From contig JARXAE010000003.1 of NCBI GenBank assembly GCA_029866005.1, positions 124,001 through 188,000 of the forward strand: 64,000 nucleotides of DNA. Reading direction: 5' to 3'. Made by a program: the position numbers and the translations under genes. Of this stretch, positions 60,870-64,000 are shown in pieces (within the stretch, counting starts at the first letter, position 1; every line of letters starts with the position of its first letter). The notes below the pieces were generated by a model, which saw nothing but the letters and a program-made list of their open reading frames with translations, was not told the origin of the DNA and ran no database searches. Source of the stretch: Fimbriimonas sp. (lineage in GTDB: Bacteria; Armatimonadota; Fimbriimonadia; Fimbriimonadales; Fimbriimonadaceae).

Positions 60870-61460
60870 ATGAAAATTAAATGTTTTGGGGCTTCTTTGC
60901 TCGCGGTCGGACTGGTCTCTCAGTCATTCTCAATCACTTTCGGACCGACTGTGACTGTTGATGGCAACAACTACACCGTTGGTGGCGGAATCGGAGCTAA
61001 CGGAATTTCGGTTCAGCAAATCGGAAATACTCTGGCATTTGCATTGCCCAACGGATTCTCCGTTGGCTCGAACAAGTCAATGTTTCTTGAGTATTCGGTC
61101 TTTGCCGACCCAGGTTTCTTCCTATCATCAATCAGCCAAATTTCCGGAAACGGGATTGCGACAGGCACGGCAAGCGTTGCCATTTCGACGAGTTTCATTG
61201 GGGTTCTAAACGAGACTGCGCCGATCATCAACTATCCTGCGGGTTCATCGTTCCCGACGTTCACCTACAGTTTCACAAGTGCACCAACCCAGTGGACCCC
61301 GGTGAAAACCAAGATCGACCTCAACGGAATCGGTGGAATTGCAAAGGTTTCCACCTACAACGCCAACTTCAACCAATCCCCTGTTCCTGAGCCAGTATCG
61401 GTCATCGTGCTTGGATCTGGTCTCGGTGCTATGCTGCTACGACGGAAGGCTACAAAGTAA
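60870..61460 (+). CDS. PEP-CTERM protein, first of a pair
   Basis: A 196-residue secreted protein. The signal peptide (MKIKCFGASLLAVGLVSQSFS) is followed by a beta-rich Gly/Ser/Asn domain, then the sorting tag PVPEPVSVIVLGSGLGAMLLRRKATK. No catalytic motif is seen, so it may be a surface or matrix protein. The stop and the next start share one base (TAATG), so it is made with the second PEP-CTERM protein. Exosortase is not in the window. Confidence 0.85.
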   Translation: MKIKCFGASLLAVGLVSQSFSITFGPTVTVDGNNYTVGGGIGANGISVQQIGNTLAFALPNGFSVGSNKSMFLEYSVFADPGFFLSSISQISGNGIATGTASVAISTSFIGVLNETAPIINYPAGSSFPTFTYSFTSAPTQWTPVKTKIDLNGIGGIAKVSTYNANFNQSPVPEPVSVIVLGSGLGAMLLRRKATK

Positions 61461-62095
61461 TGAAAAGCACACTTGTTTTTATCGGGATCTCACTCGCAGC
61501 TGCCTCACAAGCGTCGCTGTTCAACACCACAGTTTTTACGACCTCTGACGGTCTGGGTGGAAGCCCATCTCTTAATCCGGTTTTTGTGACCAACGGAAAC
61601 ACCTACACGGCTAATTTCTCAGGTCCAAACATCACCGGTGGAAGCGCACTTGATATTGTTTGGTGGCACACCTTTGACACAACTCAGGCGTCGAACAACT
61701 CGCCAGTCAGCGCACCATACACCCAGGTTACTCAGACATTAAGCGGACTTGTTCGTCAGGTAGTCGGAACAGGGCCGGCAACATTTACCGCGGTTCTGAC
61801 CGAGAACATCCTCAACAACAGCGGAGGAGCAATGGGTAGCAATCGAGGAGAATTCAACTTTAACCAACAGGTTGGAACTCAGTGGGTCCCATTTAGCTAC
61901 AGTGTGACAACGGTTTTCAGCTCGCCGATGACGGCCGGAGTGAGCCAAAAGGATGATCTCCTGGTCAACACAGGTCAAGGCGTTGAAGTCCAGATCACTT
62001 CGATCTCACAGAACTACACCCCAGTCCCAGAACCCGCCACCATGGCAGTTCTCGGTCTCGGAGCCGCCGCGCTCATTCGACGCCGACGGAAGTAA
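61460..62095 (+). CDS. PEP-CTERM protein, second of a pair
   Basis: A 211-residue secreted protein with signal MKSTLVFIGISLAAASQA, a Thr/Asn/Ser-rich beta domain and the tag PVPEPATMAVLGLGAAALIRRRRK. It is coupled to the preceding PEP-CTERM gene by a 1-nt overlap, so the pair probably acts together at the cell surface. A strong terminator follows 15 nt later. Its base composition matches the neighbourhood, unlike the PEP-CTERM gene at 26791. Confidence 0.85.
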   Translation: MKSTLVFIGISLAAASQASLFNTTVFTTSDGLGGSPSLNPVFVTNGNTYTANFSGPNITGGSALDIVWWHTFDTTQASNNSPVSAPYTQVTQTLSGLVRQVVGTGPATFTAVLTENILNNSGGAMGSNRGEFNFNQQVGTQWVPFSYSVTTVFSSPMTAGVSQKDDLLVNTGQGVEVQITSISQNYTPVPEPATMAVLGLGAAALIRRRRK

Positions 62096-62110: not shown

Positions 62111-62141
62111 AACGCCTCGGCCCCATGGTCGGGGCGTTTTT
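62111..62141 (+). terminator. Rho-independent terminator of the PEP-CTERM pair
   Basis: AACGCCTCGGCC (62111-62122) pairs with GGTCGGGGCGTT (62127-62138) with two G-U pairs, and T residues continue to 62141. It ends the two-gene transcript before the transporter gene. Confidence 0.88.
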
Positions 62142-62161: not shown

Positions 62162-64000
62162 ATGCAACGTCGAATTCTCTGCCTCCTCTGTTTGCTGATT
62201 GCAGCAATTGCGATGAGTCAAGAAGAATTGACGATTCGGATGATGTCCGGTCCTTACGGCATCCCGCCCAAGGAATCAACCTCCACCTCGGCACAAATCA
62301 AACGGAAGACGTTCGAGGAGTTCCATCGCGCCAACCCCGGTCTGCGGGTCGTCAATGCAGGAGGACTCAGCTTCACAGGTGGGAATCTCGACGACTCGAT
62401 GTTTTTGATGTCGATGGCGGGCGATTCTGCCCCCGACGTGTTTTACGTCAACTTCCGACAGTACTACACGTTTCTTGAGCAAGGTTTCTGCCGTCCCTTG
62501 GACGACCTGATTGCCAAAGACCCCCAGGTCATGGAGCGATGTAACCCGACAGTCAAAGGAGTCCTAACGAGCTACGATGGCAAAGTCTATGCCGTCCCAT
62601 TTTTCCAAGTTGCTGTCGCACTGTACTACCGAAAGGACCTCTTTAAAGAAGTTGGGCTAGACCCGCAGAAGCCTCCGAAGGACTGGAAGGAGTTCTATGA
62701 GTATTCCAAGAAGCTGAGCAACCCTTCGAAGGGGCGCAGCGGCTTCATGATCTCATCACCTCCGGGCTATCAGTGGTCGAACTTTATCTATGCCGCCGGT
62801 GGTGAGGCAGTAAAACAAGAAGGGACAAGGTGGAAGTCGGCGATTAACACCCCTGAAGCCGCTAAGTCAGTCGAATTCTTTCGCAAGATGCTGGTCGGAA
62901 AGGACGCTCCCGCCGCGATCTCCAAAAACCTTACCGATGACATTCGCACTGGCAAGACCGCCATGTGGCTGAACTACTCGAATGATGTTCTGATCCAGTC
63001 CAGCGACCTCTCACCGAGCGTGGTTGGTATGGCTCAAGTTCCCGCTGGACCGGCGGGGCACGCAAACGAAATCAACGCCGGGATGTGGGCGATTTCCTCC
63101 CGAGTCACCGACCCCAAGAAACTCGAAGCCTGCTGGAAGTTCATCAAGTTCTTTGCCGGTGATGAAGCGGCCAAGATCAATACCGACAAGTGCGTCGAGA
63201 TGGGAATGGGAAACCTTGTCAACCCTCTCTTCCTCAAGAAGTTTGGCTACACCGAGTACCTGGCACAGGTCGATGAGTCCTACGTTCGCGCGAATGAGGA
63301 GTTGTTTAAGACGGGTCACCCCGAGCCGTACGGCAAGAACTGTCAGCAGGTCTATTCAGTGCTAGATAACATGTTAGATCGGGCGAGACTCAACCCTCAG
63401 GAGCCTGCAGAAAAGATCTTGGCGGCGGCAGCCCAGGAAATGGACGAGAAGCTGCTGGGCTACACTCCGCCGGAGATTTTGGCGCGGCAACGAGGATGGG
63501 CGCTGGGGATTTTGGTTTCGCTGTGCTTGTTCCTGACTGGGCTTGGTTACTATTTGCTGCGAAAAGCACGATCAACGCCGGATACCTTTGTCGAAAGAAT
63601 TCCTGCGGGAACAAACCGGGCGAAGATGCGCCGATTCATGACGGTCTGCCTGTTTCCGGCAGTCGCAACAATCGCCACCTGGCACTACTACCCCTTGCTG
63701 CGAGGGCTCGTCATCGCGTTCCAAGACTACGGAATTCAGCGTGGGGCGCGATGGGTTGGTCTCGATAACTTCATAGGAGTCTTCACCCAGCCGCTCTTCT
63801 ACCAGTCGCTTTGGAACTCGTTCGTTTATGTGTTCTTGGCTGTCTCAGTCGGGTTTCTCGTGCCGATCTTTTTGGCGCTTGCGCTCAACGAGATCCCTCG
63901 GTTCAAGGTATTGTTCCGCACGGTTTTCTACCTGCCAGCAATGACGTCTTCGATTGTCATCGCCTTTGTTTGGCGACAGCTTTACGACAAATCACCAACT
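62162..64000 (+). CDS. Solute-binding protein fused to an ABC sugar-type permease, 3' end cut off
   Basis: The frame is open from ATG 62162 to the right edge (613 codons); I read every codon and found no stop. A signal peptide (1-19) leads a family-1 solute-binding domain (about 22-430: GKVYAVPFFQVAVALYYRKDLFKEVGL, AMWLNYSNDVL, KLEACWKFIKFFAGDEAAK). A membrane helix follows (446-466, GWALGILVSLCLFLTGLGYY), then a short cytoplasmic link and a MalF/UgpA-type permease from about 489 (RRFMTVCLFPAVATIATWHYYPLLRGLVIAFQDYG, WVGLDNFIGVF, VLFRTVFYLPAMTSSIVIAFVWRQLY). The membrane-helix count keeps the binding domain in the periplasm. The substrate is probably a sugar. Confidence 0.9.
   Translation, partial: MQRRILCLLCLLIAAIAMSQEELTIRMMSGPYGIPPKESTSTSAQIKRKTFEEFHRANPGLRVVNAGGLSFTGGNLDDSMFLMSMAGDSAPDVFYVNFRQYYTFLEQGFCRPLDDLIAKDPQVMERCNPTVKGVLTSYDGKVYAVPFFQVAVALYYRKDLFKEVGLDPQKPPKDWKEFYEYSKKLSNPSKGRSGFMISSPPGYQWSNFIYAAGGEAVKQEGTRWKSAINTPEAAKSVEFFRKMLVGKDAPAAISKNLTDDIRTGKTAMWLNYSNDVLIQSSDLSPSVVGMAQVPAGPAGHANEINAGMWAISSRVTDPKKLEACWKFIKFFAGDEAAKINTDKCVEMGMGNLVNPLFLKKFGYTEYLAQVDESYVRANEELFKTGHPEPYGKNCQQVYSVLDNMLDRARLNPQEPAEKILAAAAQEMDEKLLGYTPPEILARQRGWALGILVSLCLFLTGLGYYLLRKARSTPDTFVERIPAGTNRAKMRRFMTVCLFPAVATIATWHYYPLLRGLVIAFQDYGIQRGARWVGLDNFIGVFTQPLFYQSLWNSFVYVFLAVSVGFLVPIFLALALNEIPRFKVLFRTVFYLPAMTSSIVIAFVWRQLYDKSPT

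Follow-up and report, generated by a model that had tools for sequence, protein, structure and literature searches.

The window, a stretch of 64,000 nucleotides (G000:C20:124001-188000) from a genome of 2.8 Mb in 38 contigs (G000), ends inside a long open reading frame that joins a solute-binding protein (SBP) to a MalF-type permease. We call its product FUS (Table 1). The frame starts at ATG 62162, with an in-frame alternative at TTG 62153 upstream, runs open to the end of the window and closes beyond it at L002:6544 (G000:C20:188543), so that the full contig encodes a protein of 793 aa from the ATG or 796 aa from the TTG. An earlier note on this DNA had proposed extending the frame past the window, and the extension shows that the permease ends at this stop and that FUS is complete. 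Just 5' of FUS, at window positions 60870-62095, are genes for two neighbouring secreted proteins with PEP-CTERM-like tails, such as VPEPATMAVLGLGAAALIRRRRK. The hairpin listed in Table 1 weakly suggests that FUS is transcribed separately, given that four terminator-like sites were found where three are expected by chance. The next long frames on the 3' side encode a 162-aa protein with no Pfam match and then a 556-aa AMP-binding-type enzyme, and a shorter frame may also occur after FUS at L002 6612-6944.

Table 1. Features of the FUS locus, in window coordinates
Feature	Position	Strand	Evidence
FUS, part within the window (613 of 793 codons)	62162..64000	+	ORF; stop at 64543, outside the window
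Predicted signal peptide of FUS, Sec type, MQRRILCLLCLLIAAIAMS	62162..62218	+	Sequence; hydropathy peak aa 1-19; helix 2-17 in the model of orthologue L138
SBP_bac_1 match, CUT1-type solute-binding domain of FUS	62288..63175	+	Pfam 1.8e-31 (aa 46-341)
Added membrane helix of FUS, LGILVSLCLFLTGLGYYLL, between binding domain and permease; basic cytoplasmic stretch next	63503..63559	+	Hydropathy 2.06, aa 448-466
MalF-type permease domain of FUS, start	63641..64000	+	Pfam BPD_transp_1; UgpA 3e-19, GlcT 2e-17; alignment A1
Terminator-like hairpin GCCCC-ATGGTC-GGGGC + GTTTTT, between the upstream PEP-CTERM-type gene and FUS	62120..62135	+	Sequence

Both halves of FUS resemble components of carbohydrate uptake 1 (CUT1) ABC importers. 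Its SBP_bac_1 and SBP_bac_8 (Pfam 3.9e-22) scores exceed the curated cut-offs, which places the N-terminal domain among the family-1 solute-binding proteins of this class. The permease half matches BPD_transp_1 (Pfam 2.2e-08, aa 568-778) and is of the MalF/UgpA type; its EAA motif (YEAADLDGA...ITLP), encoded beyond the end of the window, hardly varies among orthologues. The best partial matches in NCBIfam (UgpA, GlcT, UgpB, MalF and MalE) are nearly all CUT1 proteins; those of the permease, which include MalF at 4e-08 in addition to the two in Table 1, are below the equivalog cut-offs, and FUS scores far under the cut-offs of the MalE and MalF equivalog models, which speaks neither for nor against maltose or maltodextrin as its substrate. 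The PDB sequence matches are likewise CUT1 binding proteins and permeases.

The predicted topology accommodates this arrangement. The hydropathy profile passes from the core of the signal peptide to a lone helix and then to the permease helices. No lipobox is seen in the signal peptide sequence, which is probably cleaved. A predicted structure of the FUS orthologue L138 (mean pLDDT 74) contains a signal helix, a two-lobed binding domain, a long helix at 444-478 and the permease helices, the permease half being of middling or low confidence, as it is in the model of a MalG relative discussed below. The binding domain of the L138 model is similar to the CUT1 SBPs MalE3, UgpB and a cycloisomaltooligosaccharide-binding protein (E about 1e-16, TM-score by target 0.72-0.79), and the entire domain in FUS is predicted to span about aa 22-440. 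These data support an order of signal peptide, periplasmic SBP, one helix leading inward, basic cytoplasmic stretch and permease, which is consistent because of the added helix. Two claims made earlier are thereby borne out: that a single uninterrupted frame holds a signal peptide, a family-1 binding domain, a membrane helix and a MalF-like permease (ORF, Pfam, NCBIfam and hydropathy), and that the added helix returns the chain to the cytoplasm before the permease (Pfam, hydropathy and the L138 model).

The fusion is maintained among related genomes. The earlier note had called for a search for proteins with both domains, which finds FUS orthologues in 38 of 61 related genomes, its own included (identity 49-95%), and further fused proteins in other phyla. 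Only the G054 orthologue, which lies at the end of a contig, is incomplete. Mean column identity is 71% across 24 aligned orthologues, and the permease domain with its EAA motif is among the best-conserved parts of the alignment. At the junction (aa 410-500), eight of nine close orthologues are free of indels, and the only gap in the ninth is one residue long. For the two closest pairs, pN/pS is lowest in the binding domain (0.03) and the permease (0.05), higher in the linker (0.11) and highest in the added helix (0.28-0.31), ratios that indicate purifying selection across the junction. The sequence of the added helix varies freely and its hydrophobicity is kept, which fits the expectation for a membrane anchor.

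An assembly error or frameshift that joins two genes would be the simplest alternative account of such a frame, and we found no point in its support. The identical fusion occurs in many independent assemblies, the junction is kept in frame among orthologues, and the same genome has two paralogous fusions. We give this artefact practically no chance and reject it. The refutation envisaged earlier, a stop or frameshift hidden at 63430-63630, fails with it, since the junction stays in frame in the orthologues and pN/pS is 0.05-0.31 over aa 410-500 in the two closest pairs. Chance cannot explain the open frame and the fusion.

No MalG-type gene or ATPase gene lies just 3' of FUS, where both had been looked for; the 162-aa protein and the AMP-binding-type enzyme are there instead, and the likely MalG partner is an orphan elsewhere, with MalK at a third locus. 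The partner MalG and the ATPase gene are also absent beside the FUS orthologues in all 29 loci opened in the window's order. Many of these orthologues have recA, recX-like and RNase Y-type genes next to them, named here from their translations, and no metabolic genes were seen next to FUS in the window's lineage. At one locus (L071), a second fusion with its own MalG adjoins the FUS orthologue.

A candidate partner for FUS is found on another contig. The MalG-type gene at G000:C25:32025-33533, here MalG25, encodes 503 aa, of which about 230 separate helix 1 from helix 2, carries the EAA motif in its MalG form and is the only MalG-type gene in the permease list of this genome for which no MalF neighbour was seen. 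Its distribution closely follows that of FUS. Among the 61 genomes, 37 have both genes, FUS occurs alone in one (G054, 73% complete), MalG25 occurs alone in none, and 23 lack both (Fisher p = 6e-16). This p-value ignores kinship and the counts are inflated by shared ancestry, so the association can be called strong and nothing more. A phylum sample of 201 genomes gives 89 with both, 2 with FUS only, 8 with MalG only and 102 with neither, again uncorrected for kinship; the 8 have no FUS above threshold, and threshold or incompleteness effects may lie behind the exceptions. The 19 FUS-partner MalG proteins in a permease tree form one clade (SH-aLRT 99), and the other MalG proteins of this genome fall outside it and are encoded next to a MalF or fused MalF of their own. 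The second, different permease subunit of MalG type that a CUT1 importer has is here probably the co-retained orphan MalG25, whose homologues adjoin those of FUS in relatives.

FUS might instead be a membrane-anchored sugar sensor or scaffold that has lost transport, a reading that draws on the lack of adjacent metabolic genes in the window's lineage and on the frequent proximity of recA and RNase Y. We regard it as highly improbable, because the permease domain and its EAA motif are highly conserved, the FUS permease is under purifying selection, and FUS is co-retained with a MalG permease.

Homologues of the two genes are adjacent in other lineages. In other Armatimonadota families, 52 FUS copies share a contig with the MalG at a distance of no more than 6 kb, versus 0 of 29 genomes of the window's order in the phylum sample. 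In families f17, f26 and f28 the two genes also occur on separate contigs, which may partly be due to contig breaks, and in one case they are 846 kb apart on the same contig. A neighbouring FUS-MalG pair is also present in GTDB species genomes or MAGs labelled Cloacimonadota, Delongbacteria, Lentisphaerae, Victivallales, Lentisphaeria, Phycisphaeraceae, Kiritimatiellae, Oligosphaera ethanolica and Actinomycetota, and in a Delongbacteria MAG a MalK gene directly precedes the pair.

These arrangements bear on the possibility that FUS forms a homodimer of two fused MalF-type chains with two tethered SBPs, in the manner of OpuA- and GlnPQ-type importers, with MalG dispensable. Such a homodimer would agree with the lack of a MalG beside FUS in the window's order, and it would leave unexplained both the adjacent FUS-MalG homologues in many lineages and the co-retention of orphan MalG25. 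The apparent MalG partner argues against it, and we consider a homodimer very unlikely.

Genes near the FUS-MalG pairs of distant relatives offer hints about substrates. GH38 and GH130 enzymes are encoded near the pair in the Cloacimonadota and Delongbacteria loci, with GH20 as well in Cloacimonadota, and the Phycisphaeraceae locus has glucosamine-6-phosphate isomerase-type and GlcNAc 2-epimerase-type proteins. These neighbours suggest oligosaccharides with mannose and GlcNAc as the substrates in those three groups. They tell little about FUS itself, for which a mannose- or N-acetylglucosamine-containing oligosaccharide would be a guess.

The large insert of the partner MalG is modelled in a relative (L150) as a helical domain with high confidence. 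The permease part of this model is similar to MalG, SugB and AlgM2 (Foldseek, VIA-align). For the insert, the matches are limited to short pieces of beta-amylase, GH50 and GH167-like enzymes with Z of 7 or less, and so no fold is claimed for it. A BLAST self-comparison reveals no tandem repeats. In homologues with long inserts (L150:12497-14401, L143 and L144), profile comparison relates the insert to a helical stretch of beta-galactosidase (E = 3e-05) and of a GH167 enzyme (E = 5e-05), and motifs such as LN..YGT.YASW occur there. This resemblance is not seen with the shorter MalG insert of the window's order.

The genome has one gene with an OB_MalK domain, as does each of 12 relatives tested. 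It encodes a MalK-type ATPase of CUT1 character, with ABC_tran, OB_MalK and TOBE domains, and lies on contig C6 (L097), unlinked to FUS. This MalK gene adjoins one for a protein with a type IV pilin-like N-terminal methylation motif, and no permease was seen nearby. Because several CUT1 permease sets accompany a single OB_MalK gene, the C6 ATPase is probably common to several CUT1 importers, a reading from gene number only, and the FUS permease would use it as well. Multitask ATPases that serve several CUT1 importers are described in PMC7658222 and PMC5730181, for example MsmX of Bacillus, and the lone MalK-type gene of this genome and of the 12 relatives resembles them insofar as gene number implies sharing.

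If an ATPase is shared, then sharing of other parts is plausible in principle. FUS could borrow the MalG of another importer (such as those on C16, C34 or C13) and have no dedicated partner, and other MalG proteins of this genome, of which there are several, could serve it. We judge borrowing to be very unlikely. The other MalG genes adjoin their own MalF or fused MalF, their products lie outside the FUS-partner clade, and it is MalG25 that tracks FUS in presence and absence.

The same genome contains three SBP-MalF fusions, FUS on C20 and two others on C16 and C34, each of the latter followed by a MalG gene. Fused CUT1 proteins were also found in scans of genomes labelled with several other phyla. 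The MalG proteins beside SBP-MalF fusions at L021:5703-7442 (G000:C34), L071, L091 and L092 have extended N-termini or a long loop behind helix 1, reaching up to 764 aa, and the C34 protein has no Pfam match beyond its permease part. One contig of 5343 bases (G000:C3, L022) has a complete, unfused MalE-MalF-MalG set with a TM_PBP2_N domain, together with glycosidase-like genes. It is possibly a contaminant; its G+C of 0.556 does not stand out. The earlier note had considered a fused CUT1 importer unusual: the fusion itself stands, and it is less exceptional than the note implied, in view of the three fusions here, those in other phyla and the work of Licht et al. 2019.

The fusion may have arisen more than once. 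In the permease tree, 25 FUS-type proteins form one clade (SH-aLRT 100), the C20 type is separated from the C16 and C34 types, and the starred branches force at least three changes. SBP-MalF fusions of 799 and 784 aa occur at L167:4407-6806 (a MAG labelled Proteobacteria) and L156:9848-12202 (Sumerlaeota), and their permease domains cluster with MalF proteins that lack a fused SBP. The trees suggest multiple origins on this basis; the AU test does not settle the matter, as a single clade of all SBP-MalF fusions is not rejected (p = 0.168).

We consider it very likely that FUS, MalG25 and the C6 MalK constitute a CUT1 importer that has a single tethered binding domain and an operon dispersed in the window's lineage. 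FUS would be one subunit, in which the extra helix links the SBP to the N-terminal end of the MalF-type permease. The signal peptide would be exported, the binding domain would fold into the periplasm, and one helix would bring the chain back to the cytoplasm ahead of the permease. We infer that FUS assembles with MalG25 into a heterodimeric channel that is active in transport and would be powered by the C6 MalK. The tethered domain, one per transporter, would capture an oligosaccharide in the periplasm and hand it to the channel without diffusing away. The MalG25 insert would be on the periplasmic side, where it could contact the binding domain.

A broader reading is more speculative, and we put it forward tentatively, as something we doubt more than we believe. 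These proteins may represent a separate CUT1 family in several phyla, in which the helical periplasmic domain of a dedicated MalG docks or gates the tethered SBP, a part that the P2 loop of MalF plays in E. coli. The dispersed operon, the joint retention of FUS and MalG and the frequent position of FUS by recA might then suggest constitutive uptake of a core nutrient, and the longer inserts, with their likeness to a glycoside hydrolase segment, might bind glycans.

A fusion of MalE to MalF is already on record, reportedly from Bdellovibrio. This maltose/maltodextrin transporter is the subject of Licht et al. 2019 (Res Microbiol 170:1-12; cited in PMC7756565 and PMC9045158), and such a complex is described as transport-competent; the fusion as such is consequently not new. 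Like FUS, it combines MalF and a lone CUT1 binding domain in one chain. FUS differs by its MalG with a large periplasmic insert and by the unlinked MalG and MalK genes, a comparison made by description only. Our literature searches found nothing on SBP-MalF fusions in Armatimonadota, nor a description of a wide family with a dedicated large-insert MalG or of the dispersal of its genes in the window's order.

A fused binding domain sets the number of catchers per channel, whereas the binding protein of most importers is made in excess, and a CUT1 system that is tethered by nature and conserved widely makes this trade-off testable. The case also illustrates that complete importers can escape annotation, and that a lone permease gene can be matched to its partner through co-retention and through relatives with an intact operon.

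OpuA and GlnPQ share with FUS a binding domain covalently joined to the permease. They belong to osmolyte and amino-acid families and have homodimeric permeases with at least two binding domains, whereas a heterodimer with one binding domain is expected for FUS, whose best NCBIfam and PDB matches are CUT1 proteins and not the OTCN or PAO permease families. E. coli MalEFGK2, Mycobacterium LpqY-SugABC and AlgQ-AlgM1M2S have in common with the FUS system a MalF/MalG-type heterodimer (a likely pairing in the case of FUS), the CUT1 SBP fold and a MalK-type ATPase; in these three the SBP is a separate protein, and in FUS it is fused. The large periplasmic addition of the E. coli transporter is the P2 loop of MalF, whereas that of the FUS partner is in MalG, between helices 1 and 2.
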